48,925 nt of DNA, from contig JAJZRF010000017.1 in NCBI GenBank assembly GCA_021847425.1, positions 1 through 48,925 of the forward strand. The letters run 5' to 3'. Positions 4,551 through 11,611 of this stretch are shown here, piece after piece. Source of the stretch: Deltaproteobacteria bacterium (GTDB lineage: Bacteria > Desulfobacterota > Desulfobulbia > Desulfobulbales > Desulfurivibrionaceae). The position numbers and the translations under genes were made by a program. The notes beneath the pieces are model-generated. The model saw only the letters and a list, made by a program, of their open reading frames with translations. It ran no database searches and had not been told where the DNA came from. How positions within the stretch are numbered: the stretch's first letter is position 1; each line of letters begins with the position of its first letter.

Positions 4551-6869
4551 GTGGAGCTGGTCTGGAACGGCAAGACCGGCGAGGTCTGCAACGTGGTGCT
4601 GCCGTTTCAGGTGATCGAGCAGGTGGACGAGCCGCGGGCCGAGAAACCCGCCTCCCTGCAACTTGGGCTGTTCGACCTGGACAACCGGGGCCGCCAGCTC
4701 AAGGGCTGGACCAACAAGCTGATCTGGGGCGACAACAAGCTCATCCTCTCCAGCCTGAAAAACGGCCCCCTGCGGGAGGAAATCGAGGCCCAGGGAGGCC
4801 TCAAGCTGATCTACATCGACCCGCCCTTTGACGTGGGCGCGGATTTCTCCATGGACATCGAGATCGGCGGCGACACCTTCACCAAGCGGGCCAATGTGCT
4901 GGAAGAACTCGCCTATCGCGACACCTGGGGCAGGGGGGCTGATTCCTTCATCTCCATGATCTACGAACGGCTGGTGCTGATGCGGGATCTGCTGGCCGGG
5001 GATGGCAGTATTTATGTGCATTGCGATTGGCGGGTGAATTCATTCATCAGACTGGCACTTGAAGAAGTTTTTGGCAGAGAGCAATTTCAAAACGAAATTG
5101 TATGGATAAGGACGAACGCCCATAACATGCAAACACAGGGCTACGCTCGTTCTCAGGAAACTATCTTTTTCGCTTCAAAATCGAAAACCTTTATTTTTAA
5201 TGAGCAGCGAACAGAATATGGTGATGCGCAACTCAGCCGATATAAAAAGGATGAAACTGGAAGGTTATACACTGGGCGAGACATGACGTTCTCATCAGCT
5301 AATCCAGGTCGTCAGTTTGAATGGCGAGGGGCAAAACCTCCATCGAATCGTTCTTGGGGCTATCCCTTGGAGAAGCTTGAAGAGCTTTGGGCGCAAGGTC
5401 GTATTTTGACGAAACAGGATGGAACACCTCGACTCGATGGTTTGAAAGTTTATTTGGATGAAGCCAAAGGTAAATCTCTGACCACTCTTTGGGATGATGT
5501 TGGTCGTATTGGAAACACATCATCTGAACGTCTCGGCTATCCCACCCAAAAACCCGAAGCCTTGCTTGAGCGGATCATCAAGGCCTCCTCCAACGAAGGC
5601 GACCTGATCGCCGATTTTTTCTGCGGCTCCGGCACTACTGCTGCCGTAGCCGAGCGGTTGGGCCGCAAGTGGATCGCCACCGACCTGGGCAAATTCGGTA
5701 TCCACACCACCCGCAAACGGTTGATCGGGATCCAGCGCCGGCTCAAGAAAGACAACCACCCCTACCGCGCCTTCGAAATCCTCAACCTGGGCAAATACGA
5801 GCGCCAGCACTATATCGGCGTCAACCCCAACCTCCGCGATATCGAAAGGCAGCAGCAACTGGAGGAAAAAGAGGCGGCCTTTCTCGACCTTATCCTCCGC
5901 GCCTACCGGGCCGAGCCCACCACCGGCTTTGCCACCTTCCACGGCAAGAAGGCGGGGCGGCTGGTGGCGGTGGGGCCGGTCAACCTGCCCATCACCCGGT
6001 TGTTCGTGGAAGAGATCATCCTGGAATGCCGCAAGCAGCACATCACCAAGGTGGACATCCTGGGCTTCGAGTTCGAGATGGGCTTGTTCCCCAACGTGCT
6101 GGACGAGGCAAAAGCCAAGGGCATCGACATCGCGCCCAAGTACATCCCCGCCGATGTCTTCGACAAGCGGGCGGTGGACAAGAACCAGGTGGTGTTCCAC
6201 GATGTCTCGTTCATCGAGGTCAAGCCGATCATCAAAAAGAAGACGGTGGCCGTGGAGCTGACCGATTTTTCGGTGTTCTATTCCCAGGATTCCATTGCCG
6301 CCGCCGAGGCGAGTTTGAAGGACAAGCAGAGTAAAATCGTGGTGGAAAAGGGCCAGATCGTGAAAGTCAGCAAGGACAAGGACGGCATCCTCAGCCGCGA
6401 ACCGCTGACCAAGGTCTGGACCGACTGGATCGACTACTGGTCGGTGGATTTTGATTTCGAGAACAAGCGGGAGATCATCCGGGTGCCGGTGGAGAAAATC
6501 CCCCCCGGCCCCCCTTTTTCAAAGGGGGGAGGTACGGATGCGGGCGCCGGTTATCCCTTGTCAGCGGTGGGAGATACGGATGGCGGCGCTGGTCATCCCC
6601 TGTCAAAGGTGGCGGATGCGGATGCTGGTCATCCCCACTTTGAAAAAGGGGGGAGCGAGGGGGGATTTGAAGAGGTCTGGACCGGCGACTACGTCTTTGA
6701 AAACGAGTGGCAGTCCTTCCGCACCAAGAAGGATCGGTCGCTTGAGCTGATCAGCGTCGCCCAGGAGGTGCTGCCGGGCCGCCGCAAGATCGCGGTCAAG
6801 GTGGTGGATATTTTTGGCAACGATACGATGACGATTATCGAAGTTACCGTGGGGGGGAAAGAACAATGA
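4551..6869 (+). CDS. Type III restriction-modification methyltransferase subunit (Mod)
   Basis: N6-adenine DNA methyltransferase that gives a Type III R-M enzyme its sequence specificity. It is a beta-class enzyme: the catalytic DPPF motif (IYIDPPFDVG, about residue 90 of this frame) precedes the SAM-binding FCGSGTTAAVAERLG motif (about residue 357). The target-recognition part between them (about 5040-5520) is much more AT-rich than its flanks (19 G+C in 60 bases at 5161-5220 against 37 in 60 at 4861-4920), as if exchanged by recombination. Near the C-terminus about 57 residues at 6496-6668 come from an inserted repeat. Position 4551 is a GTG with a poor site; the natural start is 4442 in another frame. 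It overlaps the following ATPase start by ATGA (6866-6869). Activity is doubtful unless the shift is bypassed. Confidence 0.9.
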   Translation: MELVWNGKTGEVCNVVLPFQVIEQVDEPRAEKPASLQLGLFDLDNRGRQLKGWTNKLIWGDNKLILSSLKNGPLREEIEAQGGLKLIYIDPPFDVGADFSMDIEIGGDTFTKRANVLEELAYRDTWGRGADSFISMIYERLVLMRDLLAGDGSIYVHCDWRVNSFIRLALEEVFGREQFQNEIVWIRTNAHNMQTQGYARSQETIFFASKSKTFIFNEQRTEYGDAQLSRYKKDETGRLYTGRDMTFSSANPGRQFEWRGAKPPSNRSWGYPLEKLEELWAQGRILTKQDGTPRLDGLKVYLDEAKGKSLTTLWDDVGRIGNTSSERLGYPTQKPEALLERIIKASSNEGDLIADFFCGSGTTAAVAERLGRKWIATDLGKFGIHTTRKRLIGIQRRLKKDNHPYRAFEILNLGKYERQHYIGVNPNLRDIERQQQLEEKEAAFLDLILRAYRAEPTTGFATFHGKKAGRLVAVGPVNLPITRLFVEEIILECRKQHITKVDILGFEFEMGLFPNVLDEAKAKGIDIAPKYIPADVFDKRAVDKNQVVFHDVSFIEVKPIIKKKTVAVELTDFSVFYSQDSIAAAEASLKDKQSKIVVEKGQIVKVSKDKDGILSREPLTKVWTDWIDYWSVDFDFENKREIIRVPVEKIPPGPPFSKGGGTDAGAGYPLSAVGDTDGGAGHPLSKVADADAGHPHFEKGGSEGGFEEVWTGDYVFENEWQSFRTKKDRSLELISVAQEVLPGRRKIAVKVVDIFGNDTMTIIEVTVGGKEQ
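6496..6668. repeat. Repeat element inserted in frame within mod
   Basis: Ends at 6496-6524 and 6638-6668 are inverted repeats of about 29-31 bp (AAATCCCCCC... to ...CTTTTTCAAAG) differing by a small indel. Between them lie about two and a half imperfect 42-bp tandem units, translated as repeats of the type DTDGGAGHPLSKV. The frame stays open, so the element adds a Gly/Pro/Asp-rich loop beginning IPPGPPFSKGGG. The flanking protein (…REIIRVPVEK / EEVWTGDYVFENEW…) reads as a continuous Mod C-terminus when the insert is removed. Confidence 0.8.
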
Positions 6870-8233
6870 TAAGAAAAATTTCTGCCATCAATTTCAAATC
6901 CTGGAAGCATACAGGAGACATCAAGCTGGCTCCTATCACCGGTCTTTTTGGCAGCAACAGTTCCGGCAAGACGAGCCTCTTGCAGTTGCTTCTGATGCTC
7001 AAGCAGACCACCGAGTCGGCTGATCGTGGGCAAGTGCTTAATCTTGGTGACCAGGCTAGCCTTGTGGAACTTGGAACCTTTCGAGATCTGCGCTTCAACC
7101 ATGAAGAGGCATCTTGTCTGAAATTGGGTATTGAATGGGATCAGCCTGAGGAACTTGTCATTAAAGACCCGGAACGAAAAGGCAGCGTTCTTTTTTCCGG
7201 ATTGTCCCTGGGTTTTCACACAGAGATTGATGGAAATGGTTCCGGCCGGATGGCTGTCAAGGAAATGAGTTATGAATTTGCCGGGCAAGTGTTCGGTATG
7301 CGGCGCAAAGCCAATGACAAATTTTCACTCTTCCCGGAGAAAAAAATATCGAAAAGCCCTTTCCGGTTTATTCGCACAGCGGGGCGATCATGGGATCTTC
7401 CTGTGCCAGCAAAGTGCTACGGATTCCCAGACCAAACCAAGGCATACTTCCAGAACGCCGCTTTCCTGGCCGATTTTGAATTAGCCTTCGAAAAACTTTT
7501 TTCCCGGATATTCTATCTGGGACCTCTAAGGGAGAATCCCCGGCGTCAATATACTTGGGCTGGAGCCCATCCCGCCGACATGGGACGCAAAGGGGAGCGA
7601 GTGGTGGACGCATTGCTTGCCTCGCGTGAACGTAGAGAAAAAATTTCACGCGGCAGGGGGAACAAAAGTCTGACAGTGGAAGAGTACGTTGCGCATTGGC
7701 TTAAGGAACTCAAGCTGATTCACAGCTTTTCCGTTGAACCGATCAGGGAGGGAGGAAACCTCTATCAAGTATGGGTTCAGAAAAGCCCCGCGAGTTCCAA
7801 GGTATTGATCACCGATGTCGGTTTCGGCGTCTCCCAGATTCTGCCGGTACTGACCCTTTGCTATTACGTCCCGGAAGGCTCCACGGTGCTCATGGAGCAG
7901 CCGGAAATCCACCTTCATCCCTCGGTGCAGGCGGGCTTGGCCGATGTTTTTATTGATGCCGTTAAAACGCGAAAGATACAGTTGATTCTCGAAAGCCACA
8001 GTGAACACCTGCTTAAGCGGTTGCAGAGGCGTATTGCCGAGGAACAACTTTCGCACACTGATGCCGCGCTGTATTTTTGTGAAATCAAAGGGGGCGGCTC
8101 CTCGCTACAAGCCCTCCATCTTGATTTGTTTGGCAACATCACCAATTGGCCGTCAGGTTTTTTCGGTGATGAATTTGAAGAAATGGCTGCCATGAGCAAA
8201 GCGATCGTGGCCCGCAAAAAGCAGGGTGAGTGA
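6866..8233 (+). CDS. SMC/RecF-like AAA ATPase, DUF3696 type, nested in Type III R-M locus
   Basis: A 455-residue ABC-type ATPase of the AAA15/AAA21 (OLD/RecF-like) group. The N-terminus MIRKISAINFKSWK leads to Walker A GSNSSGKT (residues 29-36). A DVGFGVSQILPVL signature-like segment precedes Walker B TVLMEQPEIHLHP (around residue 340) and a switch region LILESHSEHLLKRLQRR. No Toprim nuclease domain is evident. It starts on the mod stop (ATGA) and overlaps the PIN gene start by 8 bp, so the three are probably co-translated. Base composition is lower in GC (27 of 60 at 7081-7140) than mod or res flanks, suggesting separate acquisition. By analogy with other ATPase-plus-nuclease defence pairs it may sense phage or R-M failure and license the PIN effector; that role is inference. 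Confidence 0.85.
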   Translation: MIRKISAINFKSWKHTGDIKLAPITGLFGSNSSGKTSLLQLLLMLKQTTESADRGQVLNLGDQASLVELGTFRDLRFNHEEASCLKLGIEWDQPEELVIKDPERKGSVLFSGLSLGFHTEIDGNGSGRMAVKEMSYEFAGQVFGMRRKANDKFSLFPEKKISKSPFRFIRTAGRSWDLPVPAKCYGFPDQTKAYFQNAAFLADFELAFEKLFSRIFYLGPLRENPRRQYTWAGAHPADMGRKGERVVDALLASRERREKISRGRGNKSLTVEEYVAHWLKELKLIHSFSVEPIREGGNLYQVWVQKSPASSKVLITDVGFGVSQILPVLTLCYYVPEGSTVLMEQPEIHLHPSVQAGLADVFIDAVKTRKIQLILESHSEHLLKRLQRRIAEEQLSHTDAALYFCEIKGGGSSLQALHLDLFGNITNWPSGFFGDEFEEMAAMSKAIVARKKQGE

Positions 8234-8726
8234 AGTGCCGACGGCTGTGGTAATTGATACCAATGTGCTGGCGACTGCCAACGGCAAGTCGGATCACGCC
8301 GGCCCTGATTGCTTGCTGTCCTGCCTCAATGCCTTGGAGGAAGCCAAGAAGCGTCATGTGGTGACGGTTGATAACGGGATGCTGATTCTTGATGAGTACC
8401 GGCGGCATGCCAGCCTTGGCGGCCAGCCCTGCGTTGGTGATGCGTTCCTCAAATGGCTCTGGCAGAACCAAGGGAACTCCCGGCATTGTGAACAGGTGAC
8501 GATTACCCCCACAAAAAGTGATCAGAGGAATTTTCAGGAGTTTCCTGACGATCCGGCACTATCAAAATTTGATCCGTCGGATCGCAAATTTGTTGCCGTA
8601 GCCTTGGCCAGTCACAATCGTCCGCCCATTCTCAACGCCACCGACTCTGATTGGTGGGATTTCCGTCAAGCGTTCGCAGACAATGGTCTAGACATTATTT
8701 TTTTGTGCCCCGACCTATTTCGCTGA
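8226..8726 (+). CDS. PIN-fold nuclease-like protein paired with the ATPase
   Basis: A 166-residue protein with the acidic set of PIN ribonucleases: D11 in VVIDTNVLAT, E57 in LILDEYRRH, D119 in DPSDRKFVAVALA and D140/D142 in NATDSDWWDF. Most VapC toxins are about 130 residues; this one is slightly longer. The GTG start at 8226 lies inside the 3' end of the ATPase gene (8-bp overlap), with GCAGGG just upstream in the same transcript. No antitoxin-like gene accompanies it; the ATPase takes that position. It is likely the RNA-cleaving effector of the two-gene module. GC is low like the ATPase. A DNA- or tRNA-specific target cannot be judged from sequence. Confidence 0.75.
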   Translation: MSEVPTAVVIDTNVLATANGKSDHAGPDCLLSCLNALEEAKKRHVVTVDNGMLILDEYRRHASLGGQPCVGDAFLKWLWQNQGNSRHCEQVTITPTKSDQRNFQEFPDDPALSKFDPSDRKFVAVALASHNRPPILNATDSDWWDFRQAFADNGLDIIFLCPDLFR

Positions 8727-8884
8727 ACAGTATGAGGGCGCGCGTTACCCCTATCCTGAAAGGTCTTTTAGATGCTGCCCGCCAGAGGAACAGTAACAAA
8801 TAGATAATTATGGAAAATCAAGCAATTGCCATTTAGACGCTAATCCGGCCATCATAAGGCTGGCTCATCAATGGAGCATTCCCC

Positions 8885-11611
8885 ATGGCCCTGCATCCTG
8901 ATTTTCCCGACTCCCCCCACGCCATCCTCGATCCAGCCATCCGTTGGTTCCCGGCGGACGAGGCACTGCGGGCATCAAGTTTTGAAAAACTCCTGCCGCC
9001 TCTGGTTCCGGAACTGCGCCGTCAGGTAAAGGCATGGCGGGACAGCGGCTATGCCAAGGCCACGGAAACCAGCCGCAGCCTGCTTGTTTGGTGGTTCAAG
9101 ACCCCGCACCTGCTGCCCACCTCTTATCTCCCCTCGCCCTCTGGGAGAGGGGCCGGGGGTGAGGGCATGGTCGAATTCCAATACTATTTCGCCCAGCGGG
9201 AGGCGCTGGAAACCATCATCTATCTGTATGACGTGGCGGGGGTCAAGGACAAGTACGACTTGATGCGTTTTGACCAGACCGGCGCGGTATCCACCGGCAT
9301 GTTCGACGAGACCTGGCGGCGTTTCGTGGTCAAGATGGCCACCGGCGCGGGCAAGACCAAGGTGATGAGCCTGGTGCTGGCCTGGAGTTTTTTCCACAAG
9401 CTCTATGAGCCGGAATCCGCCCTTGCCCGCAACTTTCTGGTGATCACGCCCAACATCATCGTGCTGGACCGCATCTACAAGGATTTTCAGGAGCTGAGAA
9501 TTTTTTTCGCAGACCCGGTGCTGCCGGATAACGGCGTGGATGGGCGGAACTGGCGGGATGATTTCCAGCTTACCCTGCATGTGCAGGACGAGGTGCGCAT
9601 CACCCGTCCGGTGGGCAATATCTTCCTGACCAATATCCATCGTGTTTACGCGGGCGAAGACATCCCGGCCTCGCCCGATGACGACAACACCATGGATTAT
9701 TTCCTGGGCAAGCGGCCCAGCGGGGCAACCACCGACTCCAAGGTGGATCTGGGCATGATCGTGCGGGACATCGACGAGCTGATGGTCTTGAACGACGAGG
9801 CCCACCATATCCACGACAAAAAGCTGGCCTGGTTCAAGTCCATCGAGGACATCCACCACCGCCTGCTGCAAAAGGGCGCTGCCCTGAGCCTGCAGGTGGA
9901 TGTGACCGCCACGCCCAAGCACAATAATGGCGCGATCTTTGTGCAAACCATAGCCGATTACCCTTTGGTGGAAGCGATCTCCCAAAACGTGGTCAAGCAT
10001 CCGGTGGTTCCCGATCCGGCCAGTCGTGCAAAACTGTTTCCTCGTCAGAGCGCCAAGTACACCGAAAAGCATGCCGACTACATCAACCTGGGCGTGGTGG
10101 AGTGGCGCAAGGCGTATGCCGAGCATGAAAAGCTGGGCAAGAAGGCCATCCTGTTCGTGATGACCGATGACACCAGGAATTGCGACGACGTGGCCGAATA
10201 CCTGAAAGGGAACTATCCTGAATTATCCGCAAAAGACGCGGTGCTGGTGATCCACACCAAGGACAACGGCGAGATTTCCGAGGCCGCCTCCGGGAAAAAG
10301 AAGGAGGAACTGGAACTTTTGCGCCAACAGGCAAACGGGATCGATAGCCTGGAGAGCCCCTACAAGGCCATCGTCTCGGTGCTGATGCTGAAAGAGGGCT
10401 GGGACGTGAAGAACGTCACCACCATTGTCGGCCTGCGCGCCTATGCGGCCAAGAGCAATATCCTGCCCGAACAGACCCTGGGGCGCGGCCTGCGCAAGAT
10501 GTACCCCGGTGGCATCGAGGAGTACGTCAGCGTGGTCGGCACCGACGCCTTTATGGATTTTGTCGAGTCCATCCAGGCCGAGGGCGTGGTGCTGGAGCGC
10601 AAGCCCATGGGCGAGGGCACCGGAGCCAAGACGCCGCTGGTGGTGGAGATAGATACGGACAACGAGAAGAAGGACATCGAGGCCCTGGACATAGAGATTC
10701 CGGTGCTGACCCCGCGCGTGTACCGGGAGTACAAGAATCTGACCGACCTGGACGTGCGCCTGGCGGCTGACGCCAAGGTGGCCTATCAGCAGTTCAGCGA
10801 AGAGGAGCAGCGGGAGATTGTCTTCAAGGACATTACCACCGGCGAGGTGACGCACACCACCATCCTCGACACGGCGGGTATTGCCGATTACCGCAGTGTG
10901 ATCGGCTATTTTGCCCGATCCCTCATGAAAGACTTGCGGCTGGTGAGCGGCTACGATGTGCTGTACGGCAAGCTCAAGGTCTTTGTGCGGGATGAGTTGT
11001 TCGATCGGCAGGTGGCGCTTGATGACCCCAACACCCTGCGTAACCTGTCGGAGCCGGCCGCCACTAAATTGTTGTTTGAAAGCTTCAAGAAGGCCATCAA
11101 TGCGCTCACCGTGCAGGACAAGGGCTGCGCCGAAATACGGGACACGATCAAGCTGCGGCAAACCCGTCCTTTTGTGGCGAAGGATCAGGGCTACCTTGTC
11201 CCGAAGAAAAGCATCTTCAACAAGATTATCGGCGACAGCCATTTCGAGCTGCTTTTCGCCGGGTTTCTCGAAGGCTGCGATGATGTGACGTCCTACGCCA
11301 AAAATTATCTGGCCGTCCATTTCAAGCTGGATTACGTGAATGCGGACGGGGACATCTCCAATTACTACCCGGATTTTTTGGTGAAGCTGTCTGCCAGGGA
11401 GATTTTCATTGTCGAAACCAAGGGGCAGGAAGACCTGGATGTGCCGCTGAAAATGGCCAGACTCCGCCAGTGGTGCGAGGACATCAATCAGGCGCAAGAG
11501 CAGATGAAGTACGGCTTTGTGTACGTGGATCAGGAAAGTTTTGAGAAGTACAGGCCCAACTCATTTCGGAAGCTGGTTGATGGATTTCGGGAATATCAAG
11601 GGAAGGGCTGA
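8885..11611 (+). CDS. Type III restriction enzyme subunit (Res)
   Basis: A 908-residue DEAD/DEAH-type translocase and endonuclease that works with Mod to cut DNA between inversely oriented sites. Walker A is MATGAGKTK (about residue 151), the Walker B box is NDEAHH (about 304), and the superfamily-2 motif VI is EQTLGRGLRKMYPGG. The C-terminal nuclease shows the PD-ExK pattern as PDFLVKLSAREIFIVETKG (about 828-846). The ATG at 8885 follows GGAG with good spacing. About 160 bp separates it from the PIN gene, so it may have its own promoter. At 9128-9166 a palindromic repeat has been inserted in frame (PSPSGRGAGGEG) ahead of the Walker A, between WWFKTPHLL and EFQYYFAQRE. The frame is otherwise intact. 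Confidence 0.95.
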   Translation: MALHPDFPDSPHAILDPAIRWFPADEALRASSFEKLLPPLVPELRRQVKAWRDSGYAKATETSRSLLVWWFKTPHLLPTSYLPSPSGRGAGGEGMVEFQYYFAQREALETIIYLYDVAGVKDKYDLMRFDQTGAVSTGMFDETWRRFVVKMATGAGKTKVMSLVLAWSFFHKLYEPESALARNFLVITPNIIVLDRIYKDFQELRIFFADPVLPDNGVDGRNWRDDFQLTLHVQDEVRITRPVGNIFLTNIHRVYAGEDIPASPDDDNTMDYFLGKRPSGATTDSKVDLGMIVRDIDELMVLNDEAHHIHDKKLAWFKSIEDIHHRLLQKGAALSLQVDVTATPKHNNGAIFVQTIADYPLVEAISQNVVKHPVVPDPASRAKLFPRQSAKYTEKHADYINLGVVEWRKAYAEHEKLGKKAILFVMTDDTRNCDDVAEYLKGNYPELSAKDAVLVIHTKDNGEISEAASGKKKEELELLRQQANGIDSLESPYKAIVSVLMLKEGWDVKNVTTIVGLRAYAAKSNILPEQTLGRGLRKMYPGGIEEYVSVVGTDAFMDFVESIQAEGVVLERKPMGEGTGAKTPLVVEIDTDNEKKDIEALDIEIPVLTPRVYREYKNLTDLDVRLAADAKVAYQQFSEEEQREIVFKDITTGEVTHTTILDTAGIADYRSVIGYFARSLMKDLRLVSGYDVLYGKLKVFVRDELFDRQVALDDPNTLRNLSEPAATKLLFESFKKAINALTVQDKGCAEIRDTIKLRQTRPFVAKDQGYLVPKKSIFNKIIGDSHFELLFAGFLEGCDDVTSYAKNYLAVHFKLDYVNADGDISNYYPDFLVKLSAREIFIVETKGQEDLDVPLKMARLRQWCEDINQAQEQMKYGFVYVDQESFEKYRPNSFRKLVDGFREYQGKG
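9128..9166. repeat. Palindromic repeat inserted in frame within res
   Basis: CCCCTCGCCCTCTGGGAGAG is followed by GGGCCGGGGGTGAGGG, forming a G/C-rich hairpin of the same general design as the pair at 4261-4379. It is translated as SPSGRGAGGEG and leaves the res frame open. Confidence 0.75.

Follow-up and report, generated by a model that had tools for sequence, protein, structure and literature searches.

What does a gene pair encoding an ATPase and a PIN-domain protein do between the methyltransferase gene (mod) and the restriction gene (res) of a Type III restriction-modification (R-M) locus? The question is raised by positions 6866-8726 of contig JAJZRF010000017.1 (assembly GCA_021847425.1, Desulfurivibrionaceae), whose 48,925 nucleotides are referred to here as the window. 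The first-pass annotation had suggested that this pair would be a two-component, ATPase-gated RNase guarding the Type III enzyme, a composite abortive-infection system parallel in layout to PrrC. Judged by profile matches, the two proteins are HEC-03B and HEC-03A and belong to an already catalogued candidate defence family. We consider it fairly probable that 6866-8726 is an HEC-03 module whose ATPase senses infection and gates a PIN endoribonuclease, a backup to restriction located in a Type III cargo slot. The basis of this reading is the gene pair itself, its family match, the predicted folds, the conserved active-site residues, the conservation of the partners and the exchange of cargo in the slot. 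The HEC-03 family itself was catalogued before; what is added to it here is the exchange slot with its empty state and a recurrent RNA ligase.

Two proteins of the HEC-03 family

HEC-03 is said to go back to a 2024 preprint by Payne et al. and to be listed in PADLOC-DB 2.0.0. HEC stands for Hma-embedded candidate, a class derived from guilt-by-embedding, and several HECs, including HEC-06, have antiviral activity (PMC12988326, accessible part). The name HEC-03 itself was found in the literature only in a rumen survey (PMC13356809, accessible part) and in an osteoarthritis paper, the source preprint being outside reach; it may be that some HEC with a PIN, perhaps HEC-03, has been assayed before.

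The ATPase matches HEC-03B over residues 1-453 (E 4.8e-165), and AAA_15, AAA_21 and DUF3696 (6.9e-10) lie above the Pfam cut-offs, which bears out its earlier description as a DUF3696-type ATPase. It also matches the AriA profile (1.9e-24), with HEC-03B, NsnB and PDC-M55A scoring better; the literature matches listed for NsnB were all unrelated. The best Foldseek matches of its AlphaFold2 model (mean predicted local distance difference test score, pLDDT, 92.1; 76 sequences) are PtuA (8sux), GajA and Rad50/SMC heads, and the model predicts an OLD/PtuA-like head. FGSNSSGKTS, which we take to be the Walker A motif, and DVGFGVSQ, presumably an ABC-signature-like motif, are invariant at their key positions (Table 1). 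Classical ABC ATPases have a catalytic Glu where the Walker B motif EQPE has Gln, from which we infer slow hydrolysis and a stable ATP-bound state. EQPE was considered as a hallmark of HEC-03 and rejected, as it is present in 16/16 distant relatives on viral contigs.

The AlphaFold2 model of the partner (mean pLDDT 96.5; 73 sequences) retrieves with Foldseek the PIN domains of SMG6 (E 6.2e-4), an exosome subunit, archaeal proteins and a toxin-antitoxin complex, and in PADLOC and Pfam it matches nothing but HEC-03A and PIN_3. The PIN fold is called on AlphaFold2, Foldseek and the HEC-03A match, and not on Pfam or the sequence search of the PDB. The claim of a PIN fold with an acidic site holds for the predicted structure, where D11, E57, D116 and D140 are in place, as is D119. 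In the alignment of the window protein with 87 other PINs, all four acids are kept in 78 of the 84 rows covering these positions. The alignments used for structure prediction held the window protein and 72 PINs or 75 ATPases, hand-picked from the 87 and 91 found, and conservation was recounted on all rows. In two other PIN systems the catalytic residues are required for phage defence (PMC13092281, accessible part).

The likeness of the ATPase head to Rad50/SMC and GajA would also suit a sensor of DNA ends or DNA structure whose PIN partner cuts DNA and adds to restriction, and some PIN-like folds cut DNA. The best PIN matches nevertheless include RNA-linked proteins (SMG6, the exosome subunit, the toxin-antitoxin complex), and RNA ligases join the pair repeatedly, as described below; we regard a DNA-cutting pair as very improbable.

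Conservation of the partners

Relatives of the ATPase were collected by searching a species-genome collection with an eight-row ATPase alignment; this gave at least 564 matches, and the 80 best were analysed. A PIN gene lies beside the ATPase in 76 of these 80 loci, with a gap of -20 to +20 bp in 72 of the 76; one of the other four ends 134 bases after the ATPase, and L041, L048 and L051 have no recognisable PIN. Seen from the PIN side, the ATPase is adjacent in 7/7 phylum genomes and 12/12 class genomes, and on plasmids an ATPase match stands, by position, directly before the PIN gene in all 12 PIN-bearing records. Of 20 ATPases on viral contigs, the four nearest are accompanied by a PIN and the 16 distant ones are not, L104 among the latter breaking off at its ATPase; the PIN search of phage records gave no match. 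The divergence of the ATPase is correlated with that of the PIN protein (r 0.77 over 68 loci; maximum of 500 shuffles 0.12). The ATPase and the PIN protein are close partners.

Tight two-gene coupling and the presence of the pair on plasmids are also what a toxin-antitoxin or addiction pair stabilising the R-M locus would show, with a PIN toxin held by the ATPase, and VapC toxins are PIN proteins (PMC13092281, accessible part). The ATPase, however, is large and has conserved nucleotide-binding motifs, unlike a VapB-type antitoxin, and the small DNA-binding antitoxin of VapBC is missing from a locus where the PIN gene overlaps the ATPase gene and only 158 bp separate its stop from the start of res. 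Modules in the slot are moreover swapped or absent in relatives, which would make for poor addiction. An addiction pair is quite unlikely on this evidence.

Host contexts of the pair

Contexts were labelled with hidden Markov models built on the loci themselves, which miss other defence systems. L084, whose ATPase is in two open reading frames (ORFs), was omitted from the context count and the tree, leaving 79 of the 80 loci; the HsdM label of L036 was set aside by hand, and unlabelled loci with less than 5 kb on a side were treated as not callable. The 79 loci comprise 11 with Hma, 8 with Type I, 5 with Type III (L062, L065, L070, L078, L086), 24 with none of these and 31 not callable; the 39 with 5 kb on both sides divide into 8 Hma, 5 Type I, 2 Type III and 24 none. 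Of the pairs in the 12 class genomes, two (G000, G313) lie within Type III loci and three (G330, G451, G424) adjoin hsd genes; other hosts include BrxL near one locus and a Type IIG enzyme near one locus. The pair stands strictly between mod and res in the window, in L187 (G313) and in L086, the last with other mod and res families; in L062, L065 and L078 it is upstream of mod. On the ATPase tree (quick method; support only by the Shimodaira-Hasegawa-like approximate likelihood ratio test), Type III versus the rest requires at least 6 changes. The module moves between hosts, though not freely, and the evidence supports the description of an OLD/ABC-type ATPase tightly linked to a PIN-fold protein that has its acidic site, both nested in R-M and R-M-like operons.

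These contexts bear directly on the idea of an R-M guard, in which the ATPase would contact Mod or Res and free the PIN protein when a phage inhibitor blocks restriction. On the one hand, the pair is nested between mod and res with overlapping genes, the nesting recurs in L187 and L086, context is conserved in part by clade, and PrrC and PARIS (phage anti-restriction-induced system) have been termed RM guardian systems (PMC12707154, accessible part). On the other hand, Type III accounts for only 5/79 loci, Hma and Type I are commoner, 24 loci with full flanks have none of the three, the nearest ATPase outside the slot (L018, 76% identical) follows hsdMSR, and close mod-res relatives hold unrelated cargo or none. 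Dedication to a Type III enzyme, as first proposed, is not upheld, and a true R-M guard seems unlikely to us. The first-pass annotation had named homologues mostly outside R-M loci with no partner conservation, or the lack of a PIN fold or acidic site, as what would speak against it; most homologues do lie outside Type III loci, but the partners are strongly conserved (76/80), the PIN fold is predicted and its site is present.

Two further arrangements were observed. The three gammaproteobacterial contigs L062, L065 and L078 have a helicase, the HEC-03 pair and mod in a row, followed by res in L062 and L065; the helicase is DrmD-like in L065, the one scanned of the three. In L209 (positions 7642-11475; G368) and L210 (G370), the pair lies 7 bp before a gene that we read as encoding methionyl-tRNA synthetase, the only match in each genome; this is possibly a hint at tRNA and possibly a mere insertion site.

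The mod-res junction as an exchange slot

Searching with the window's res gave matches in 31 of 297 phylum genomes at E up to 1e-60, in 16 of 257 class genomes at E up to 1e-150 (either count takes in G145 and the genome of the window) and in two plasmid records at E up to 1e-100. Distant and fragmentary matches were left aside; 33 regions were taken from 19 of the other 30 phylum genomes and from 12 of the 14 class genomes that remained, and the two plasmids were added. Together with the window this makes 36 regions, of which 29 are readable, with mod followed by res; L149, L156, L163, L166, L189 and L191 are unreadable, and in L165 res precedes mod.

The junction is empty in 11 of the 29 readable loci and filled in 18, the window among them. 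In ten empty junctions the stop of mod overlaps the ATG of res by one base, and in one there is a 5-bp gap. The cargo is HEC-03 in the window and HEC-03 with the DUF488 protein PDC-M19A in L187; elsewhere it is Fic (L183, SoFic in PADLOC; L185, by Pfam search only), an ATPase matching HEC-01A and mad3 together with a weak mad4 match (L186), zeta-like kinases (L184, L155), IetAS (L151), PDC-S13 Bro-N (L152, L153), PDC-S22 KilA-N (L157, L194), Schlafen AlbA_2 (L158, L160) or DUF559 (L164). L192 and L167 have cargo with no family assigned, no family search having been made of these two. Within the window's genus, the four other genomes with this res have Fic (G479, G484), the HEC-01A-like ATPase (G490) and two empty loci (G487), and HEC-03A is found in none of the 16 other genomes. 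Among relatives of the window's mod-res, this junction is an exchange slot whose cargo varies even between members of a single genus.

The two HEC-03 pairs in the slot (window and L187) are 93% identical in the ATPase and 82% in the PIN protein, and the window's res is closer to those of L186, L183, L184 and L185, with different cargo, than to that of L187. On the res tree of 29 rows, the state of the cargo has to change 15 times or more, counting the two HEC-03 loci as separate states and the two unassigned as one. The window and L183 are homologous in DNA through mod as far as 6844 and again from 8796, shortly upstream of res, and unrelated cargo is found in mod-res loci that share 86-97% identity with the window over the aligned DNA. 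A partial second mod 3' end lies between cargo and res in two of the 18 filled slots, L151 (84 bp, 84.5%) and L187 (112 bp, 86.6%), a possible trace of cargo insertion by recombination. L012 (G140) had been considered as a member of the window's mod-res family with an empty junction and was rejected, with mod 31% and res 25% identical.

This provides a Type III example of a defence cargo slot for which the empty state, the two boundaries and a wide range of occupants are known, so that the unassigned occupants become ranked candidates for phage defence. Judged by title and abstract, none of the papers listed in a search dealt with a cargo slot in Type III mod-res loci, most subscription papers being outside reach. 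A proposed hotspot of a similar kind is known from Type I R-M, where DarTG2 lies between hsdS and hsdR at a site called a potential recombination hotspot (PMC12255303, accessible part); cargo inside an R-M operon is common to both, the site here being the Type III mod-res junction. Among the occupants, the zeta-like kinases of L155 and L184 (no PADLOC match) and the Schlafen AlbA_2 proteins of L158 and L160 (weak PADLOC matches) are candidate defence genes. In L193 (7245-9013; G471) the slot is occupied by a HATPase protein, a STAS-like protein with DUF4325 and a PIN protein of another kind, which may be a further gated RNase.

RNA ligases beside the PIN gene

In four plasmid records, from Aeromonas, Azotobacter, Rhodococcus and Tistrella, the gene after PIN is annotated as an RNA ligase family protein; in an Acinetobacter plasmid it is not so annotated. 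An RNA ligase follows PIN in 8 of the 80 genome loci, 3 of the 4 near viral-contig loci and 8 of the 12 class genomes. Two subfamilies can be distinguished, 26% identical between groups (median) and 67% and 46% within, and members of both match PF09414 (L069 1.9e-20; G014 1.2e-33, G254 4.9e-32). KxDG, which we take to be ligase motif I, is present in all 18 labelled ligase ORFs (two loci counted twice) and in 8 later ones. The ligase groups sit in two separate ATPase clades, requiring at least 3 changes on the tree against at least 13 in 200 shuffles. PF09414 occurs in 6 of 14 control genomes; of eight HEC-03 genomes searched only G014 and G254 have it, once each and at the HEC-03 locus. Two ligases scanned matched no PADLOC family, and a PDB sequence search with the ligase gave weak matches only. 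The idea that R-M-embedded pairs lack a ligase was rejected, since in L211, L212 and L216 a trio with ligase lies next to hsd genes.

PIN cuts leave 5'-phosphate and 3'-OH ends, and the ligase could join PIN-cut RNA ends with no end healing. Because an RNA ligase recurs beside PIN, RNA is favoured as the substrate, and the ligase suggests that the damage is reversible in the versions that carry it. As a tentative proposal, less probable than the module itself, HEC-03 may at root be a cut-and-reseal RNA system, in which an ATPase-gated PIN protein breaks RNA and a dedicated ligase rejoins it, so that translation is stopped and then restarted; the two ligase subfamilies would have been recruited separately, and ligase-free copies such as the window's would be a one-way, suicidal form. 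The recurrent ligase makes the question of substrate directly testable, as RNA with ligatable ends. No paper on such a PIN and RNA ligase was found (including the accessible part of PMC7824862; most subscription papers were outside reach).

Comparison with known systems

Both window proteins match HEC-03 at near full length and share with it the embedding in another defence system; the window's pair differs in lying in a Type III mod-res slot. OLD-ABC ATPases with PIN endoRNases have been described in bacteriophage exclusion (BREX) and related systems as proposed backup suicidal effectors (PMC12839542, accessible part), the same pairing and the same proposed role as here. The general idea of a backup effector is thus already in print for other hosts; that survey covers BREX and DUF499-based systems, and its main text, in the part accessible, does not contain the words ligase or DUF3696.

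In PARIS, a hexamer of the ABC ATPase AriA holds AriB, senses phage proteins and releases the tRNase (PMC12409363, accessible part). An OLD/ABC ATPase with a separate nuclease is shared, whereas AriB is a Toprim protein and the window's partner is HEC-03A with a predicted PIN fold. With Septu and retron PtuAB, the ATPase shares its best Foldseek match (8sux); their second protein, PtuB, is an HNH nuclease, whereas the window's partner matches HEC-03A and PIN_3 only. PrrC, an anticodon nuclease, shares the lodging of an effector in an R-M locus and is a single protein in a Type IC locus (PMC12707154, accessible part), whereas the window has two proteins in a Type III locus and homologues mostly outside Type III; no PrrC profile is among the best 25 of 116 PADLOC families for the window. 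The parallel with PrrC drawn earlier thus survives as regards layout; the ATPase is nearer to OLD, PtuA and GajA, which makes PARIS the better analogue. By analogy, the pair is rather likely to be best understood as a PARIS-like ATPase-gated RNase in backup defence.

Proposed mechanism

In such a mechanism, an OLD-family ABC ATPase would sense infection and hold or activate the PIN endoribonuclease. Once triggered, the PIN protein would cut host RNA, most likely tRNA, and translation would stop, the cleavage acting as a backup to restriction. In the slot the pair would be one of many modules translated straight after mod and before res. Linkage to mod-res would provide co-expression and joint transfer, and the pair is probably independent of Mod or Res for its function.

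Several points weigh against a gated PIN RNase acting as a backup. For the PIN fold, the Foldseek template-modelling scores are modest (0.44/0.45 to SMG6, 0.50/0.57 to 7vwo), the only Pfam match (E 0.0082) is below the cut-off, and the PDB sequence search matched no PIN structure. One of the four acids is absent in 6/84 PINs, and four further rows are gapped. As to the pairing, the 80 loci were chosen by their likeness to the window and are not a random sample; L041, L048 and L051 lack PIN despite 3.8-5.5 kb downstream of the ATPase; 4/76 PINs are partial, frameshifted or weak (L031, L056, L060, L076); and the ATPase reading frame is broken in G014, G201 and L084. The window copy has no ligase, and its genome (81% complete) has no PF09414 match. 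Finally, 6 changes on the ATPase tree suffice for the 27 rows with Hma, Type I or Type III, against at least 10 in 200 shuffles; context is partly inherited, so that a functional tie to the host system is conceivable.

Layout and composition of the locus

The four genes mod, ATPase, PIN and res stand in one row on the + strand (Table 1), in the order and with the overlaps first described: 4 bp between mod and the ATPase (ATGA), and 8 bp between the ATPase and PIN if PIN starts at GTG 8226. An alternative GTG at 8235 would leave a 1-bp gap after the ATPase; as the L187 pair has the same 8-bp overlap, 8226 is favoured. In Type III R-M, a Mod-Res complex cuts between inversely oriented sites. The locus has the genes of such a system, a mod with an N6/N4 methylase and a res with a helicase and a nuclease, the latter with a weak C-terminal match (RE_endonuc 0.0049); res also matches restr_BPTD_3080 at 1.1e-75, below that profile's cut-off. 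Hma is not among the PADLOC matches listed around the pair, MTase_III being the best for mod (best 25 of 64 families) and REase_III for res (all 6 families). The ATPase and the PIN protein have one match each in the window's genome.

Table 1. Features of the mod-res locus in the window (rows: aligned sequences with a letter at the position, unless otherwise indicated)
Feature	Position	Strand	Evidence or conservation
mod, Type III DNA methyltransferase, 772 aa	4551..6869	+	PADLOC MTase_III 2e-113; PF01555 6.4e-43
ATPase HEC-03B, OLD/AAA_15-type ABC ATPase with DUF3696 tail, 455 aa	6866..8233	+	PADLOC, Pfam, AlphaFold, Foldseek
FGSNSSGKTS, ATPase residues 28-37	6947..6976	+	G34, K35 in 91/91 rows with letter
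DVGFGVSQ, ATPase residues 317-324	7814..7837	+	D317, S323, Q324 in 91/91 rows with letter
Walker B EQPE, ATPase residues 344-347	7895..7906	+	E344 91/91, Q345 90/91
E-S-H-S switch region, ATPase residues 376-379	7991..8002	+	E376, H378 in 90/91
PIN nuclease (predicted), HEC-03A, 166 aa	8226..8726	+	PADLOC HEC-03A 6.6e-42; AlphaFold; Foldseek
PIN DTN motif, D11-N13	8256..8264	+	D11 84/86, N13 86/86 rows with letter
PIN E57	8394..8396	+	85/87
PIN D116, D119	8571..8582	+	D116 83/87, D119 86/87
PIN D140	8643..8645	+	85/86
res, Type III-like restriction subunit, 908 aa	8885..11611	+	ResIII 5.7e-14; REase_III 2.4e-18
Exchange slot, mod stop to res start, 2015 bp	6870..8884		Slot survey, 29 readable loci; DNA alignment to L183

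The G+C figures given earlier (27/60 at 7081-7140 in the pair, 39/60 at 9301-9360 in res) are correct. By gene, G+C is 50.4% in the ATPase, 53.3% in PIN, 56.3% in mod and 57.6% in res, and the contrast is largest at third positions (54%, 58%, 71% and 77%). It is moderate, as 4900-5500 within mod is lower still, at 46.9%.

Rfam at gathering thresholds gave no match in the window. An inverted-repeat element lies in frame inside mod at 6500-6662, with 31-nt arms that are 84% complementary and 101 nt apart, and the alignments with the mods of L183, L185 and L186 lack it. A short repeat-like stretch at 9119-9167, in frame near the start of res, has an opposite-strand match in the mod of L183, L185 and L186 (79-85% identity).

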